From positions 1-64,000 of the forward strand of contig NZ_SOEZ01000078.1 in the NCBI RefSeq assembly GCF_004402215.1: a stretch of DNA of 64,000 bases, given 5' to 3'. This document shows, piece after piece, positions 31,257-42,717 of this stretch (its first letter is position 1; every line of letters begins with the position of its first letter). A program made the translations under genes and the position numbers. This DNA is from Cryobacterium tagatosivorans (GTDB lineage Bacteria; Actinomycetota; Actinomycetes; Actinomycetales; Microbacteriaceae). The notes beneath the pieces are model-generated. The model worked only from the letters and a program-made list of their open reading frames with translations. It was not told the origin of the DNA and did not search any database.

Positions 31257-33809
31257 ATGCCCATATTCTTCGGTCCGGCAGGTTCCGGCGAGGGTTCGTT
31301 CGACGAATTCCTCGCCCGCTACCTCCAGGGTCAGCGCGCGGCCCAGTCCGGGCGCCCGATCGACATCACCCGGCTGCTCAGCCGCCGCACGCACGAGGTG
31401 CTCGCCCACGCCGCCCGATTCGCGGTTGAGCTCGGCCATGCCGACGTCGACGCGCTCCACATCCTCAGGGTGATGGCCGAGCAGGCACCTGCCTCCGACG
31501 CCATCAGGCACACCGGCACCGACCCCGCCGCTGTCGCGAAGGCAGCGGAGCAGCGACTGCCTGAGAAGTCGGCCCAACTGCTTTCGGCCGCGCCGTCACT
31601 CACCCTTTCGGCGCAGCGCGCCCTGCTCGACGCCTACCAGGTCGCACGGGCCTTCGGCTCGACCTACATCGACCCCGAGCACCTGTTCTACGCCTTTGTC
31701 GTCAATCAGGATGCGCCCGCCGGGCAACTCCTGGCCGCGGCCGGAGTGACGCCGGAATCGCTGCAGGCGGGCGTGGGGGAGGAGCAGGGGGCTGCGCCTG
31801 TCCCGAGCCGGCCGGAATCAGCCGACCCCTCCGGGACGCCCATGCTCGACACCTACGGCACCGATCTGACCGCACTGGCTCGCGAAGGCGGACTGGACCC
31901 GGTGATCGGCCGGTCGGACGAGATCGAGCAGACGATCGAGATCCTCTCGCGGCGTACCAAGAACAACCCGGTGCTGATCGGCGAGGCCGGCGTGGGCAAG
32001 ACTGCCATCGTCGACGGGCTCGCGCAGGCGATCGTCGACGGCAACGTTCCCGAGCAGCTGCGCGGCAAGCGCGTGATCGCGCTCGACCTGCCCGCTCTGG
32101 TCGCCGGCACCCGGTACCGTGGCGACTTCGAGGAACGCCTGACCACCCTGATGGACGAGATCAGTGCGCGCACCGACGAGCTCATCGTGTTCATCGACGA
32201 GCTGCACACCGTCATCGGCAGCGGCGGCGCCGAGGGCGGAATGGACGCCGGCAACATCCTGAAGCCGCGCCTTGCCAGGGGGGAACTGCACGTCGTAGGT
32301 GCGACCACGCTCAAGGAATACCGAAAGGTCGAGAAGGACCCGGCGCTGGAACGCCGCTTCCAGCCGGTGCGGGTGGGGGAGCCGAGCATCGAGGATGCCG
32401 TGCGGATCCTCGCCGGGCTGCAGGGGCGGTACGAGGAACACCACGGCGTCGAGTACACGGACGAGGCGCTCCGAGCCGCCGTCGAGATGTCGGCCCGCTA
32501 CGTGACCGACCGCTTCCTGCCCGACAAGGCCATCGACCTCATCGACCAGGCCGGCGCCCGGCTGCGCCTGAGGCTCGGCGTGAGGCCGGACCTGGCGGCG
32601 CTTCGCGCGCAGCTTGCCTCGCTCGAGGGCGCGAAGACCGCGGCGGTCGCGGCGGAGCAGTATGAGGAGGCCTCGCGGCTGCGGGACGAGGTCGAGGCCG
32701 TGCAGCAGAAGATCGCCTCGGCGGATTCTCTTCCTGACCCGGCCGCGCCCGCGGTGGTCGACGAGGCGGAGATTGCGGAGATCATCGCCAGGGCCACCGG
32801 GATCCCCGCCAGCCGGCTCACCTCCGGCGACCGCGAACGCCTGGGCCGACTCGAAGGCGACCTGCACGAGCGGGTCATCGGGCAGGATGACGCCGTGACG
32901 GTGATCGCCAGGGCTGTGCGGCGCAACCGCACCGGCATGGGCGACCAGCGCCGGCCGGTCGGCAGCTTCCTGTTCCTCGGGCCGACGGGTGTCGGCAAGA
33001 CCGAGCTCGCCAAGGCACTCGCCGAATCGTTGTTCGGCGACGAGCAGGCGATGCTGCGCTTCGATATGAGCGAGTTCGGCGAACGGCACACCGTCAGCAG
33101 GCTCGTCGGCGCCCCTCCCGGCTACGTCGGGTACGACGAGGCCGGGCAGCTCACCGAACGCGTGCGGCGGAACCCGTACTCGGTCGTGCTGCTCGATGAG
33201 ATCGAGAAGGCGCACCCCGACGTGTTCAACCTGCTGCTGCAGGTGCTCGACGACGGGCGCCTGACCGACGGGCAGGGCCGCACCGTCGACTTCCGCAACA
33301 CGGTCATCATCATGACCTCGAACATCGGCTCTGAGTTCCTGGCAAGCCGTAGCGGCGCGCTGGGCTTCACCGCCGATCACGACGGATCCGGGAACGGCTT
33401 CGGGTCCGACAAGGCGCTGCGCGACCGGGTCATGGGCAAGCTCCGCGAGGCCATGCGTCCGGAGTTCCTCAACCGGATCGATGAGGTCGTGCTGTTCCAG
33501 AAGCTCGACCGGGCGCAGCTGCGCCGGATCGTGCGGCTGATGCTGGCCCAGACCGAGGCACGCCTGCGGTCCCAGGACATCGGACTCATGGTGAGCGACG
33601 AGGCGGTCGACTGGATCGCCGACCGCGGCTACGAACCCGAATACGGGGCGAGGCCGCTGCGCCGGGTGATCCAGCGGGAGCTGGATGATCGGATCGCCGA
33701 TCTCCTCGTCGATTCCGAGCTGACCGGCGGCGGGCAGGTCACCGTGTCCGTCGACGGCGAAGCACTGAGCATCGACGCCCGCACGGAACGGATGCCCCTG
33801 GCGGCGTAG
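31257..33809 (+). CDS. ClpC/ClpB-type AAA+ unfoldase under HspR control
   Basis: 850 aa. Clp N repeats span ~35-165; AAA1 has Walker A GEAGVGKT (~242) and [14 protein letters not shown]; the middle region is short, with a UVR-like [15 protein letters not shown] (~460); AAA2 has GPTGVGKT (~577). An LGF motif (SGALGF, ~700) resembles the ClpP-binding loop. The long ClpB coiled-coil propeller is missing, so this is ClpC-like and may feed ClpP, although the HAIR operator is usual for clpB. The start has CAGGAGG six bases upstream. It acts in protein quality control in the cytoplasm. Confidence 0.9.
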
Positions 33810-33826: not shown

Positions 33827-33865
33827 AAAGCCGGGAACCTGCCTTGAAGGCAAGTTCCCGGCTTT
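33827..33865. terminator. Stem-loop after the Clp gene
   Basis: A 17-bp stem with one mismatch (AAAGCCGGGAAC arm) and a short TTGAA loop, with AAAA before and TTT after. This allows termination in both directions between the Clp gene and the convergent small Cys-rich gene. Confidence 0.85.
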
Positions 33866-33898: not shown

Positions 33899-34066
33899 TC
33901 AGCGGGAGAAGAGCCGGGTGAAGAAGTTGCCGGCGGGGGCTGGGTCGTTTTCGTGGCCGCGGCACTTCTGGGCGCTCGGCACGCCTCGCATGACCTGGTC
34001 GACATGCTGACCGCAGCCTGCCCACGTCGTCTTCCCACACTTCTTACACGTCACTGCTCGGCACAT
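33899..34066 (-). CDS. Small Cys-rich protein A, TWAGCG family, 55 aa
   Basis: MCRAVTCKKCGKTTWAGCGQ begins the product. Five Cys and two His residues (C2, C7, C10, C18, GQHV, C-R-G-H) suggest a zinc- or copper-binding ribbon. A basic/aromatic tail FFTRLFSR follows. It is paralogous to the 38-aa ORF at 35854: both share MCx3-4CxxC, TWAGCG, HVxxVM, VPxAQ and a C-terminal Cys pair or CRGH. An AAGGGA ribosome site precedes the ATG, and a palindrome-promoter lies 33 bases upstream. Small proteins of this type are widespread in actinobacteria without a known job. Metal or sulfur handling is my inference from the operator type. Confidence 0.85.
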   Translation of the reverse strand: MCRAVTCKKCGKTTWAGCGQHVDQVMRGVPSAQKCRGHENDPAPAGNFFTRLFSR

Positions 34067-34098
34067 TGGTGTTCCCTTTCGTCAAGCTGTCTCGGCCG

Positions 34099-34117
34099 AC
34101 TATACCCCATGGGGTAT
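34099..34117 (-). promoter_or_regulatory. CsoR/CstR-like palindrome overlapping a TATAGT -10 element (copy 1)
   Basis: The perfect 16-bp palindrome ATACCCCATGGGGTAT (34102-34117), read on the minus strand, runs straight into TATAGT. The same design occurs at 35801-35819. C-tract/G-tract palindromes of this kind are recognised by the CsoR/RcnR/CstR family of metal or persulfide sensors. The family assignment is by resemblance. Confidence 0.75.
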
Positions 34118-34139
34118 CGAGATTGCTGCGGAGGGGAGA

Positions 34140-34739
34140 TCAGCAGCCAGAGTTGGTCTGGGCCTGGTCGAGCTGGAGCACGGCAACGATGTTCTTCACG
34201 GTGGCGGAATTCGGATCGTAGCCGACGGGTCGGTAGCAGCTGACGAGCACCAGGCGGTTCGGGATCGCATCCGTCAACTCGTCGTTGTGCTTGTATTCGG
34301 CCTTGTCCAGCGTCAGTGTCTTCTGCGTGACGTAACAGAGGGTGCCGTTGGCGGTGTCGATGCCCGCAACGTCACCGGCCTTCATTACCCTGATGCCGTT
34401 GAAGACGGCTTCGTCGACCCAGGAGTGCCCGTACAGGTAGACCGTGTTGATCGAGTCCGTTCCCGCGGTCCCACCCTGGATCGTCGTGTCCCACGAGATG
34501 GTCGACAGCTCGGGCGGATCGAAGCCCCCGCGGGCGTTGATCATCTGCTGGGAGTACTCCGACACGGCGCCGTCCACTCCGATGACGGGGACGCGGAGGC
34601 GCAGGGGAGCCGACGCGGCGATGACGAGGTCGGCGGCGGGGCCGGGCGTTGCCGCGGTGGGCGACGCCGAGGGGGCCGCCGCGAGTGGGGTCCGGCGGAC
34701 GGGGGCGGGAGTTCCGGCGCCCGTGTCCGCCAGGGTCAA
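34140..34739 (-). CDS. Class E/F-type sortase
   Basis: The catalytic residues are His in VYLYGHSW, Cys in LVLVSCYRP and the following Arg. The body is 199 aa from TTG 34739. A hydrophobic N-terminal anchor (ALLVGTAALLSAV, then VGWLGLTLADTG) is encoded in frame upstream at 34740-34796, but no ATG, GTG or TTG precedes it. CTG 34793 or CTG 34817 are the only candidates. The anchor region overlaps the end of the substrate gene, so coupled translation is likely. The enzyme would sit in the membrane and attach LAXTG proteins to the cell wall; its partner is the next gene upstream. Confidence 0.85.
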   Translation of the reverse strand: MTLADTGAGTPAPVRRTPLAAAPSASPTAATPGPAADLVIAASAPLRLRVPVIGVDGAVSEYSQQMINARGGFDPPELSTISWDTTIQGGTAGTDSINTVYLYGHSWVDEAVFNGIRVMKAGDVAGIDTANGTLCYVTQKTLTLDKAEYKHNDELTDAIPNRLVLVSCYRPVGYDPNSATVKNIVAVLQLDQAQTNSGC

Positions 34740-34800
34740 ACCAAGCCAGCCGACGGCTACCGCAGAGAGCAGGGCAGCCGTGCCGACGAGCAGGGCTTTT

Positions 34801-35721
34801 CTAGCGACGGGCGCCAGCCTTGCGGGTTGCGAACGCCGCGGTGAGCAGGCCGCCGGCGAGCAGCATGAGGACGCCCGCGCCGAGGAACATCGTTCCGTCG
34901 TCGCCGGTGCCGGCCAGGCCGAAGCCGTCCGTCTTCGAGTCGTGCAGCACGTTTTTCACCGGGGCGGTCGTCCCGGGGGTATTCGCCACGGGCGTCGTGC
35001 CGGCGGTGAGGAAGTTGTTCGTCAGCGTCGCGTCGCAGGTGACGCTGGCGCCGCCGCCGTTGGCGGAGTTGTTGCACTGGTTGATCGTGACCGGGAGCAG
35101 CGCACTCTGGGTGGACGGGTGCACGGTGCAGATGACACCAGTTGCGCCGCCGCCGCCGATTGCGGAATCGTTGCACTGCGTGATGGTTGCGCCGGAGGTT
35201 GCGGCCGGGAACGGGTCGCAGATCAGAGCCGTGCCGCCGCCGGTTGCGGATCCAACACACTGGTCCACCGTTGCGCCGGTCGGCGCCTTGTCCTTATCGG
35301 CCGCACCGGTGATGTTGTTCACCACGGTCACTGTGCAGTCCAGGTTGCCGCCGCCGCCGTTCAGGGCGTAGTTGCACTGGCTGACCTTGCTCGTGAGCGT
35401 GTTGAAGGACTCGGTCGACGGAGTGCCGCAGGTGGATGCCCCGTTGGCCCCTTCACAGACCGTGGTTGTGACGGTGGAGCTCTCCACCCCGGTGGTCAGG
35501 TTCAGCGTGTTCTGCACGGTCACATCGCAGATGAGTTCCAGGCCCGGGGTGTTGTTGACGCTGTCGCACTGGGCGAAGTCCTGCGCGGACGCGCTGTCGG
35601 AAGGGGCCAGGGTAAGGCCCACGGCCGCGATCGCTAGCGCCGCGACCAGAACAGTGGCCCTCATCAGCGAGGACTTGAAGAGGGTGCTTGCGGGCACAGG
35701 GGTTGACGAAGCTGTGAGCAC
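34801..35721 (-). CDS. LAXTG-anchored wall protein with Cys-Gly repeats
   Basis: 306 aa. It has a signal peptide (hydrophobic ~20-45, cut after ASAQ). About five repeats of 25-45 residues follow, with a pattern QC-x5-6-GGG-x3-5-C (for example QCNNSANGGGASVTCD). A Thr/Pro linker, the sorting signal LAGTG (~268), a hydrophobic helix and a basic tail RKAGARR close the protein. Each repeat carries two Cys, suggesting one disulfide per repeat outside the cell. The sortase gene overlaps downstream. The GTG start has TAGGAG four bases upstream; ATG at codon 20 is an alternative. Function unknown; a structural or adhesive role is inferred. Confidence 0.85.
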   Translation of the reverse strand: MLTASSTPVPASTLFKSSLMRATVLVAALAIAAVGLTLAPSDSASAQDFAQCDSVNNTPGLELICDVTVQNTLNLTTGVESSTVTTTVCEGANGASTCGTPSTESFNTLTSKVSQCNYALNGGGGNLDCTVTVVNNITGAADKDKAPTGATVDQCVGSATGGGTALICDPFPAATSGATITQCNDSAIGGGGATGVICTVHPSTQSALLPVTINQCNNSANGGGASVTCDATLTNNFLTAGTTPVANTPGTTAPVKNVLHDSKTDGFGLAGTGDDGTMFLGAGVLMLLAGGLLTAAFATRKAGARR

Positions 35722-35800
35722 AGGACTCCTAAGGTAGGCCTCGACGCTAACACGCGGACCGCCCTCGGAGGACCAGGCAGGCCGTCACGCTGGCTATTTG

Positions 35801-35819
35801 ATACCCCTGGGGGTATAGT
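35801..35819 (+). promoter_or_regulatory. CsoR/CstR-like palindrome overlapping a TATAGT -10 element (copy 2)
   Basis: ATACCCC-TG-GGGGTAT (35801-35816) is a perfect 7+2+7 inverted repeat, and its right end forms TATAGT (35814-35819). The ATG of small protein B is 35 bases downstream. It also lies 80 bases upstream of the divergent LAXTG gene, which may share its control. Confidence 0.75.
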
Positions 35820-35853
35820 TGTCCTTACCGTTAGACCACTGAAGGAGAAACCC

Positions 35854-35970
35854 ATGTGCAGTCCCGTCCGTTGTAATGTTTGTGCGAAAATCACCTGGGC
35901 CGGATGCGGCGAGCACGTCGCCAGCGTCATGGCTGACGTCCCGCCCGCCCAGCGCTGCACCTGCAACTAA
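35854..35970 (+). CDS. Small Cys-rich protein B, TWAGCG family, 38 aa
   Basis: MCSPVRCNVCAKITWAGCGE begins the product, which ends QRCTCN. Six Cys residues are present (C2, C7, C10, C18, C34, C36) plus His in EHV. It matches protein A (33899-34066) along its whole length but lacks that protein's C-terminal tail. GAAGGAG lies eight bases before the ATG. A 126-aa gene starts 12 bases after its stop and is probably co-transcribed. The Cys spacing suits a small metal-binding or thiol-reactive fold; no function is established. Confidence 0.87.
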   Translation: MCSPVRCNVCAKITWAGCGEHVASVMADVPPAQRCTCN

Positions 35971-35981
35971 GCAGCAAGGGG

Positions 35982-36362
35982 ATGCTCAGCGCATCCATCC
36001 GCGCCCGCGAAAGCGAGGCGCTCCAGCGACTGGCCGCCACCACCGGCGGCCAGTCGCTTTGCTCTGTCTCGAGGGGTGCGCCGGTCCCCGCCGCGAAGTA
36101 CTACGAGGGCATGGCGGCGGCCCTGGCCGAGGTGCGACGGGCCATCCGTCGCCTGTCCCTCCTTCCGGATGACGACGCCGGCAGCCGGCTGGTCCTCGGC
36201 GACATCCGTGCGCGCTGGGCGGCGGAGGCCGGCGCGCCTGGCCGCACCGGCCCCGGCTGGGCCGGCTACCTCGCCGGCGGGCTTGAGGCCCTGGATCAGC
36301 TGGCCGCTGACCATGCCGGTGATGCCGAACGCCCGGGTACTGGCGCCGATCCCTCGGACTAG
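35982..36362 (+). CDS. Hypothetical protein following small Cys protein B, 126 aa
   Basis: I do not recognise a named domain. The first third is poorly ordered. The rest contains AAKYYEGMAAALAEVRRAIRR and a Trp/Gly segment GWAGYLAGGLEALDQLA, suggesting a helical soluble protein. The ATG is directly after AAGGGG, which is too close for a normal ribosome site, so coupling to the upstream small gene or a slightly different start is possible. The frame has normal codon use and ends before a strong terminator. Confidence 0.65.
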   Translation: MLSASIRARESEALQRLAATTGGQSLCSVSRGAPVPAAKYYEGMAAALAEVRRAIRRLSLLPDDDAGSRLVLGDIRARWAAEAGAPGRTGPGWAGYLAGGLEALDQLAADHAGDAERPGTGADPSD

Positions 36363-40787: not shown

Positions 40788-41537
40788 ATGGAGTCTGAGC
40801 AGCCTGATCAACCACAGCGCACGTCGTCAGGCAGGTCCCGGCGCCGCGGTCTGATCTACCTCATCCTCGCAGTTGTCGGGTTGGCGGTCGTGGTCGGAGT
40901 CGGCTTTGCGGCGCAGTCCGGCACGGCGGAGACGGGTCCGGCCGCGAGGGACGCGAGTGGGCAGGGCTCGGACGAACCGCTGATCGACATGTCGCGTCGG
41001 ATCGAGGGTGATCCGACCGCGCTCGGGGCCACCGACGCACCCGTCGTCATAGTGGAGTATTCGGACTATCGCTGCCCCTTCTGCGCCGTGTTCGCGCGCG
41101 ACACCATGCCGCTTCTCGTCGACGAGTACGTGACGTCGGGGCAGGTGCGCTTCGAATGGCGCGATCTCACCGTGTTCGGGCAGCAATCCATCGACGCGGC
41201 CGTTGCCGGCCGGGCGGCCGGCAACCAGGGTCTCTTCTGGGAGTACACCGACGCCATCTTCAAGGACGCCCCGGAGAGGGCCCATATCGACCTTCCGCGC
41301 GAGCGCCTGCTCCAAATCGGCCGGGACGTCGGCGTTCCCGACATGGCTCGCTTCGAGAGCGACCTGGGCGACCCCGCACTCCTGAAGCTCGTCACCGATG
41401 ACACCGCCGAGGCGCAGTCGATCGGCGCGACCGGCACGCCCCTTTTCCTCGTCAACGACACACCCATCACCGGCGCACAACCCCTGGAAGCCTTCCGCCA
41501 GGCCATAGACCGCGAACTCGAGGAAGCGGCCAGGTAG
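40788..41537 (+). CDS. Membrane-anchored DsbA-like thiol oxidoreductase
   Basis: 249 aa from ATG 40788 (GGAAGG upstream). A basic cytoplasmic tail (GRSRRRGLI) and one membrane helix (~25-45) anchor the protein. The thioredoxin-like domain has the redox motif CPFC (~95) within EYSDYRCPFCAVFA, and the cis-Pro loop GATGTPLFLVND. It would form or repair disulfides on exported proteins. It overlaps the CcdA gene by one base, and CcdA-type proteins supply reducing power to such partners. Confidence 0.88.
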   Translation: MESEQPDQPQRTSSGRSRRRGLIYLILAVVGLAVVVGVGFAAQSGTAETGPAARDASGQGSDEPLIDMSRRIEGDPTALGATDAPVVIVEYSDYRCPFCAVFARDTMPLLVDEYVTSGQVRFEWRDLTVFGQQSIDAAVAGRAAGNQGLFWEYTDAIFKDAPERAHIDLPRERLLQIGRDVGVPDMARFESDLGDPALLKLVTDDTAEAQSIGATGTPLFLVNDTPITGAQPLEAFRQAIDRELEEAAR

Positions 41538-42364
41538 TGGATATCGGCTACGCGGGGGCCCTGGTCGGCGGTGTCCTGACCCTGCTCAGTCCGTGCTCGG
41601 TCATGCTCCTTCCCGCGTTCTTCGCCTACGCATTTTCAACACCCGCAAAACTCCTGGGCCGCACGGGCCTGTTCTACCTCGGGCTGATCACCACACTCGT
41701 GCCGATCGGCGTCCTGGCCGGGACGCTCGGTGCTTTCCTGTTCCAGCACCGCTCCGAGATGGTGGTGGTCGCTGCCTCCCTGATCATCGGACTGGGCATC
41801 ATCCAGGTCATCGGCATCAGGATTCCTGCGTTCACCCGAGGTGCAACGGCAGAGGGGACGTCATCCGCCTCCGTCTTCCTGCTCGGAGCGGTCTACGGTG
41901 TCGCCGGGGTGTGTGCCGGCCCCATCCTCGGGTCGGTCCTCACTGTCGCCGCCGTGGGCGGAAATGCCGCGTATGGGGGGATCCTGCTGGCCGTCTACGG
42001 GCTCGGCATGACCGTCCCCCTGTTCCTGCTCGCGCTCGTCTGGGACCGCCTGAAGATCACCGAGCGCGGCTGGTTGAGGCCGCGCATGCTCCAGGTCGGA
42101 CGATGGCAGAACTCGTGGTTGCTGATCGTGTCGGGTCTGCTGTCCATCGGGATTGGACTGCTGCTGCTGCTCACCGACGGCACGGCGAGCCTCGGCGGCT
42201 TCCTGACCATCGGCGATCAGTTCGTCGCCGAATCCTTCGTCCTGACCGCGTCATCGGGGATGTCCAACCTGCTCTTCGGCTTGGCGGCGATCGCCCTTCT
42301 GGTCATCGTCGCCGGGATCTACTACCTGCGCACCCGTGCGCGCCCTGGGCAGGACCGTCGATGA
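41537..42364 (+). CDS. CcdA-like thiol-electron membrane transporter
   Basis: 275 aa from GTG, starting within the stop codon of the DsbA-like gene. There are about six to seven membrane helices. The two conserved Cys are in LLSPCSVML (~20) and GVAGVCAGPIL (~126), as in CcdA/DsbD-gamma. It would pass electrons from cytoplasmic thiols to the extracytoplasmic DsbA-like protein. The next gene overlaps by four bases (ATGA). Confidence 0.85.
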   Translation: MDIGYAGALVGGVLTLLSPCSVMLLPAFFAYAFSTPAKLLGRTGLFYLGLITTLVPIGVLAGTLGAFLFQHRSEMVVVAASLIIGLGIIQVIGIRIPAFTRGATAEGTSSASVFLLGAVYGVAGVCAGPILGSVLTVAAVGGNAAYGGILLAVYGLGMTVPLFLLALVWDRLKITERGWLRPRMLQVGRWQNSWLLIVSGLLSIGIGLLLLLTDGTASLGGFLTIGDQFVAESFVLTASSGMSNLLFGLAAIALLVIVAGIYYLRTRARPGQDRR

Positions 42365-42717
42365 ACGACAAGGGAATTCTCCTGCACGTCAGCGGCGCGG
42401 ACGCGGCGGGTGTCGAGGCCGGGATCCGGGCCGCGCAGAACGCCGGAGCCTGCCTGCCGAACGTGCGGATTGACCTCGTGGTCCAAGGCCCGTGCGTCGC
42501 CTTCCTGCGGGCCGGATCGGTCCTCGAAGCAGAACTGGCGGCCCTCCCCGAGCAGGCCGGGCAGGGGCGGCACGTGCATGTGCTGGCCTGCGGCAACAGC
42601 ATGAGGTCGGCGGGGATGGAAGCCGATGATCTGTGCCGGGATGTTTCGATGGTCCCGGCTGCCGTCGCTCATCTGGCCGTGCGGCAGTTCGACGGCTGGG
42701 CCTACGTTCGCGTCTGA
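42361..42717 (+). CDS. DsrE-family protein
   Basis: 118 aa from ATG 42361; a longer reading frame upstream is a shadow of ccdA. The fold is DsrE/DsrF-like, with GILLHVSGADAAGVEAGIRAAQNAG, LVVQGPCVAFL and VHVLACGNSMRSAGM. The Cys in LACGNS sits where DsrE proteins carry their sulfur-bearing Cys. It may relay persulfide sulfur in the same pathway as the DsbA/CcdA pair. Its role here is inferred from the operon. Confidence 0.75.
   Translation: MNDKGILLHVSGADAAGVEAGIRAAQNAGACLPNVRIDLVVQGPCVAFLRAGSVLEAELAALPEQAGQGRHVHVLACGNSMRSAGMEADDLCRDVSMVPAAVAHLAVRQFDGWAYVRV

Follow-up and report, generated by a model that had tools for sequence, protein, structure and literature searches.

In Staphylococcus aureus the CsoR-family persulfide sensor CstR has reactive-sulfur defence genes as its targets, and in mycobacteria the small, Cys-rich and copper-responsive metallothionein MymT lies under the CsoR-family repressor RicR. 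Both resemble, by description, a locus of Cryobacterium tagatosivorans that encodes two Cys-rich microproteins, here named the TWAGCG family after a motif that they share, each preceded by the same palindrome. The locus lies in the first 64,000 nucleotides of contig NZ_SOEZ01000078.1 (assembly GCF_004402215.1); this whole stretch is referred to as the window. We know of no TWAGCG protein in the S. aureus CstR regulon. Comparisons of sites, regulators and neighbouring genes indicate that the microproteins very probably belong to a CstR-repressed regulon for sulfane sulfur (persulfide and polysulfide).

The most similar circuit is that of Streptomyces coelicolor, in which the sulfane-sulfur sensor ScCsoR (SCO0620), a two-Cys repressor of the CsoR family, acts at a 16-bp ATACC-n6-GGTAT operator and is released by polysulfide, for which Cys37 and Cys66 are needed; its targets are the dioxygenase ScPDO, a rhodanese and TauE (PMC7533328). 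The type of repressor, the operator length and these classes of target are common to both organisms. The four Streptomyces genes form one cluster, with no Cys microprotein among those described in the available part of that account, whereas the Cryobacterium sites are scattered and their targets add thioredoxin, major facilitator superfamily (MFS) genes and the two microproteins. The copper-sensing CsoR of Streptomyces lividans likewise has a G-tract pseudopalindrome with TAC and GTA ends, but the site is TAC-X9-GTA and its targets are copZA (PMC3902906), whereas the ends of the Cryobacterium sites are eight bases apart (N8).

The two microproteins have in common MC-x4-C-x2-C, TWAGCG, HVxxVM and VPxAQ, and the ORFs (open reading frames) bear out at the base level an earlier note, made from the letters of the window, that had picked out two small Cys proteins with shared motifs. 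Both genes look protein-coding because ratios of nonsynonymous to synonymous differences (pN/pS, over the first 38 codons) are low: 0.06–0.12 for microprotein 1 against six Cryobacterium loci and 0.08–0.34 against four more distant loci, and 0.12–0.24 for microprotein 2 against three loci of the genus. Values for microprotein 2 rise to 0.37–0.57 against loci L068 and L065, perhaps other paralogues; C. psychrotolerans (locus L084) differs from it by four synonymous changes and no replacements. Among the best 80 of at least 586 confirmed homologue loci the closest relative of microprotein 1 is also from C. psychrotolerans, at 96%. Residues C2, C7, C10, C18, H21 and C35 are invariant in 44 aligned homologues, and in the long type, represented by microprotein 1, a variable linker leads to an aromatic tail that is conserved. 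Neither microprotein matches a Pfam or NCBIfam family at E values up to 0.1, and the family looks undescribed; the best PHROGs match has an E value of 0.33, PDB sequences gave no match to microprotein 1 at E values up to 10, and a profile search of the PDB with the family returned a single match (E 0.51). A literature search by motif letters and topic, mostly at the level of titles, found no description of the TWAGCG family.

The palindrome ATACCCC-N2-GGGGTAT precedes both genes as an exact match (ATACCCCATGGGGTAT for microprotein 1 and ATACCCCTGGGGGTAT for microprotein 2; coordinates are in Table 1), and merges into a -10-like TATAGT at each, as had been noticed earlier. The gap from TATAGT to ATG is 32 and 34 bases respectively; the 33 and 35 bases first given need this small correction. 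Shuffles predict 0.03 such palindromes at up to two mismatches, and no shuffle had two. In C. psychrotolerans L084 the arms of operator 2 are unchanged and its two central bases differ. Microprotein 1 is followed by a strong terminator-like hairpin, so its transcript is probably monocistronic.

The association extends to the homologues. The comparative set consists of the 80 best loci, so its counts describe the closer homologues; it covers many actinobacterial genera together with two records labelled as Acidobacteria metagenome-assembled genomes. Sites were scored as N8 palindromes with up to one mismatch in the 150 bp that precede the microprotein, for which 79 loci have enough sequence, one being cut at its start. 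Such a site is present in 49 of the 79 upstream regions and is exact in 38, compared with none for the reversed motif and 24 of 4308 for 150-bp windows taken at random from these loci, an enrichment before TWAGCG genes on which the earlier note had staked its proposal. Three bases following the palindrome complete a TATNNT in 44 of the 49 (TATACT or TATAGT in 20), and a repressor would therefore sit on the -10 box. The distance from palindrome to start codon is mostly 30–60 bases, behind unrelated upstream genes. This retained short distance, the absence of a continuous T run and the position of the element between divergent genes elsewhere in the genome make it extremely improbable that the palindrome, rather than being an operator, serves the upstream genes as an RNA hairpin or terminator, even though operator 1 comes after the sortase stop codon and operator 2, which a T-rich stretch follows, was flagged as terminator-like.

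Neighbouring genes point to sulfane sulfur. A CstR match lies within 6 kb in 45 of the 80 loci, and a match to the persulfide dioxygenase (pdo) query in 34, although many of the latter, at 30–40% identity, are FAD-rhodanese genes, and the pdo and rhodanese matches overlap through the rhodanese domain common to both queries. Taken together, CstR, rhodanese, dioxygenase or TauE matches are found in 57 loci (29 of the 49 with an upstream site and 28 of the 31 without). The site occurs elsewhere in the locus in 21 of these 31, and in several of the 21 the microprotein directly follows a CstR or rhodanese-domain gene of the same strand. The comparison of TWAGCG neighbourhoods in actinobacteria that the earlier note had called for thus yields a site or one of these sulfur-gene matches within 6 kb in 77 of 80 loci. 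The remaining three (L098, L110 and L120), all from Agromyces, have two perfect arms around one central base. This 15-bp operator variant lies upstream of the microprotein in those loci and in L168, whose repressors may favour a different spacing.

A scan of the 3.78 Mb genome for the palindrome, also proposed earlier, recovered 14 sites at up to two mismatches, compared with one for a reversed control, and genes beside them were taken from a dedicated gene call followed by Pfam. Most sites head sulfane-sulfur genes (rhodaneses, a dioxygenase-like fusion, TauE, thioredoxin and a CstR-type gene), and the 16-bp ATACC-n6-GGTAT pattern of the S. coelicolor site is present at the target promoters. 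On contig C53 (sites are given as contig:position), C53:44433 and C53:44453 separate a leftward pair of membrane-like proteins (YeeE/YedE-like by eye, with no Pfam match) and a rhodanese from a rightward CsoR-family gene and MFS gene, C53:46154 and C53:46175 lie upstream of thioredoxin, and C53:52314 precedes a metallo-beta-lactamase/rhodanese fusion that we read as persulfide-dioxygenase-like. Two further sites, C77:69454 and C77:69499, lie between rhodanese-TauE and an MFS gene.

The earlier note had likened the palindrome to operators of CsoR/RcnR/CstR-type sensors and suggested a response to copper or reactive sulfur; the CsoR family fits, specifically its CstR branch. Four CsoR-family proteins are encoded in the genome. 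Three have the Cys-His-Cys pattern of copper sensors, two of them adjoining copZ and copA; the fourth (C53:44627) has two Cys and, when aligned with the copper-type copies, Ala at the copper-His position, and on its sequence it is a CstR-type regulator of the persulfide-sensing branch. As the earlier note had observed, the window itself contains no regulator nearby; the gene for the CstR-type protein lies on a different contig. A formaldehyde regulator of the FrmR type was considered for C53:44627 and rejected: FrmR is its best NCBIfam match but scores 38.8 bits where the cut-off is 133, and the targets of the palindrome are sulfur genes.

It is very improbable that the microproteins are metallothionein-like copper or zinc stress proteins under a copper CsoR. 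They are indeed Cys-rich, with a metal-site-like pattern of Cys and His, and the palindrome resembles copper CsoR sites in a genome with three copper-type copies, but copper is disfavoured because the sites in the two csoR-copZA intergenic regions are one base longer (17 bp, TAC-N9-GTA, the spacing reported for S. lividans in PMC3902906) and because regulators at the microprotein loci lack the copper His. The only two one-mismatch N9 places in the genome are in these csoR-copZA regions. At two mismatches there are seven places, two in the csoR-copZA regions and five outside, one of them being the N8 site of thioredoxin in a shifted register, and at three mismatches the count is close to that expected by chance (34 versus 28 for the control). 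By comparison no N9 site with up to one mismatch was found in the 79 homologue upstream regions, copA matches occur in 9 of the 80 loci versus 45 for CstR, and all 43 CsoR-family proteins in 39 microprotein loci lack the copper His, although the motif used would also catch copper-type proteins. The copper part of the earlier proposal is therefore abandoned in favour of the CstR-type, sulfane-sulfur regulon.

Within the genus the microprotein and CstR tend to go together. Homologues occur in 44 of 60 genomes searched, the source genome included, and at least two copies are present in 24 of 37 Cryobacterium genomes. An exact site accompanies 28 of 68 microprotein genes in 32 Cryobacterium genomes; viewed from the sites, 28 of the 72 exact copies in 28 genomes have a microprotein start no more than 150 bp downstream, and the other 44 are unclassified. 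Only two of the 37 Cryobacterium genomes (G002 and G010) lack a close CstR-type match, and both also lack the microprotein and the exact site (Fisher p = 0.015, uncorrected for kinship). Plasmids carry compact versions: on Curtobacterium pC1a a stretch of ~4.4 kb combines a CsoR-family gene and the microprotein with rhodanese, DsrE, TauE, thioredoxin and a metallo-beta-lactamase protein, and clusters similar in part are present on Rhodococcus, Cnuibacter, Clavibacter and Microbacterium plasmids. A phylum-wide draw found the TWAGCG family in 36 of 296 genomes.

Several observations weigh against assigning the microproteins to a sulfane-sulfur regulon, or against the fold proposed for them below. 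Some genome sites have other or no evident targets: C56:19563 lies between DUF302 and DUF1918 genes, C60:126392 and C66:959 (one mismatch) adjoin an ArsR gene, and C56:22851 and C59:154981, with two mismatches, have no assigned target. Three CstR-positive Cryobacterium genomes (G020, G022 and G027) lack the microprotein, and six microprotein-bearing ones (G005, G008, G014, G028, G031 and G036) lack an exact site; the locus retrieved from each of these six has a site with one mismatch. In 20 of the 49 palindrome-bearing loci none of the CstR, rhodanese, dioxygenase and TauE queries has a match within the locus. The wider draw yielded an N8 site at up to one mismatch or a sulfur-gene match in 14 of 28 loci (~3 kb each), and a site within 150 bp upstream in 4 of 27 genes, the 28th not being re-found by motif; given these low counts, the link is strong near the lineage of the window and weaker, or invisible within 3 kb, farther away. 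An AlphaFold model of the microprotein has a predicted template modelling score (pTM) of only 0.50, and Foldseek returned no significant match to it (best E 3.1). The sites at C60:126392 and C66:959 are apparently a repeat with a multicopper-oxidase-like gene (by eye) nearby, and may belong to another regulator.

Between the microproteins lie a sortase and a Cys-repeat protein with a LAXTG-type anchor, which the earlier note had placed in a co-regulated stress module. Operator 2 does face the LAXTG gene, as that note stated, 79 or 103 bases before its start (35721 or 35697 according to gene call), and the arrangement is common to C. psychrotolerans L084, but this is the only one of the 80 microprotein loci with sortase and LAXTG matches. 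The search of 60 genomes found LAXTG homologues in 14 further genomes of Cryobacterium. Eleven of their loci, from 11 genomes and 3.7–3.9 kb each, have no palindrome within four mismatches (the best has five); six include a sortase and none a TWAGCG microprotein. The sortase and LAXTG genes therefore look like bystanders that form an independent cassette, and their membership in a stress module is distinctly improbable. What survives of that module is the placing of the small Cys proteins in an apparent reactive-sulfur regulon; the wall protein, like copper, drops out.

The gene behind microprotein 2 has relatives behind a TWAGCG gene in six other genomes (L084, L212, L209, L065/L221, L132 and L148; tblastn E 4e-59 to 7e-4), and it is possibly co-transcribed with the microprotein. 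Farther along the window (40890–42717) DsbA/thioredoxin-like, CcdA/DsbD-like and DsrE-like genes stand in a row. Matches to ccdA occur in 8 of the 49 palindrome-bearing microprotein loci versus 0 of the 31 others, and a Rhodococcus plasmid has DsrE, CcdA and a thioredoxin-domain gene near the microprotein. On the other side (31257–33809) is a gene for a ClpB/ClpC-like chaperone, which scores under the cut-off of the ClpB equivalog; 5 of the 49 palindrome-bearing loci, all of them from Cryobacterium records, have a gene of this kind close to the microprotein.

Table 1. Positions of the microprotein genes, predicted operators and adjoining features in the window.
Feature	Coordinates	Strand	Description	Basis
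TWAGCG microprotein 1	33899..34066	-	55 aa, long type, conserved FFxRLF-like C-terminal tail	ORF, homologues, pN/pS
TWAGCG microprotein 2	35854..35970	+	38 aa, short type	ORF; identical protein in C. psychrotolerans L084
CstR-type operator 1 (predicted)	34102..34117	-	16 bp, TAC-N8-GTA, overlaps -10-like TATAGT of microprotein 1	Exact match
CstR-type operator 2 (predicted)	35801..35816	+	Overlaps -10-like TATAGT of microprotein 2	Exact match
Terminator-like hairpin after microprotein 1	33827..33865	-	18-pair stem, T-rich tail	Consensus scan only
Sortase	34140..34739	-		PF04203, 27.9 bits versus cut-off 26.6
LAGTG-anchored Cys-repeat wall protein (LAXTG gene)	34801..35721	-		Sequence
126 aa protein, no Pfam match above cut-off	35982..36362	+	11 bases after microprotein 2	

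By analogy with ScCsoR, the reduced CstR-type repressor would block the microprotein promoters until sulfane sulfur modified its Cys residues and released it, so that the microproteins would be made together with the detoxification enzymes. The AlphaFold model has the order strand, CxxC turn, strand and helix, with the CxxH at the start of the helix, and per-residue confidence (pLDDT) of 81–87 in four blocks of residues 1–40 and 55–58 in the tail. This predicted order fits a zinc knuckle or treble clef, with C7, C10, C18 and H21 fitting as ligands, and is like that of the mini domains of ZitP and the Sgf73 zinc fingers, although the Foldseek matches to these (E 7.9 and 7.3) are not significant. 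Least certain of the steps proposed, C2, C7xxC10, C18xxH21 and C35 may together make up a small domain of the zinc-knuckle (treble-clef-like) kind that leaves some reactive thiols spare; removal of Met would put Cys2 at the N-terminus. Equally uncertain, such a protein might take up or relay sulfane sulfur, serving either as a sink or as a carrier that delivers it to a rhodanese, a dioxygenase or a FAD-rhodanese reductase-like enzyme. This chemistry has a precedent, in that PerR of Synechococcus, according to the title of the report, senses sulfane sulfur through persulfidation at a structural zinc site (PMC9952342).

A role as sink or carrier is accordingly put forward tentatively, and two others compete with it. 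As a structural zinc protein or an adaptor, the microprotein could dock or stabilise one of the detoxification enzymes, such as a rhodanese or FAD-rhodanese reductase, perhaps through its FFxRLF tail. Rhodanese and FAD-rhodanese genes do adjoin the microprotein, and the long type keeps its aromatic tail, but the short-type paralogues lack it, and we regard an adaptor as unlikely. Somewhat less likely still is a partner of the repressor, either an anti-repressor or a thiol protein that resets CstR, instead of a sulfur carrier. CstR is the nearest same-strand upstream gene in 14 of the 80 loci and the downstream one in 4 (dedicated gene call), but the FAD-rhodanese, dioxygenase or TauE queries match the upstream same-strand neighbour equally often (14 of 80), CstR is on another contig in the genome of the window, and two or more microprotein copies are common in the genus. 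These data do not discriminate between carrier, sink, CstR partner and enzyme adaptor. The full statement, a CstR-type regulon with repression and the sulfur-carrier and zinc parts included as inferred elements, is nevertheless considered probable.

The microprotein genes are an example of how annotation can miss such genes. In all 30 plasmid records listed the microprotein ORF has no listed gene, the plasmid gene table being incomplete, and in a second listing of 40 records 33 have no gene under the ORF, six have a 'hypothetical protein' and one is unannotated. Two microprotein loci were matched in viral contigs; one homologue (L238) lies at the very end of the sequence stretch from an IMG/VR contig classed as viral, and a phage record without annotation carries a microprotein match.

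Persulfide and copper operators of the same genome may be distinguishable by the spacing of the palindromes, N8 or N9. TWAGCG proteins may, as a possibility that we hold with no more confidence than the sink or carrier role, be widespread and often unannotated zinc-thiolate microproteins of the Actinomycetota, dedicated to carrying or absorbing sulfane sulfur and a missing component of the CstR/rhodanese/dioxygenase pathway. Persulfide homeostasis is known so far through enzymes and sensors, and a Cys microprotein would add to it a non-enzymatic thiol component.

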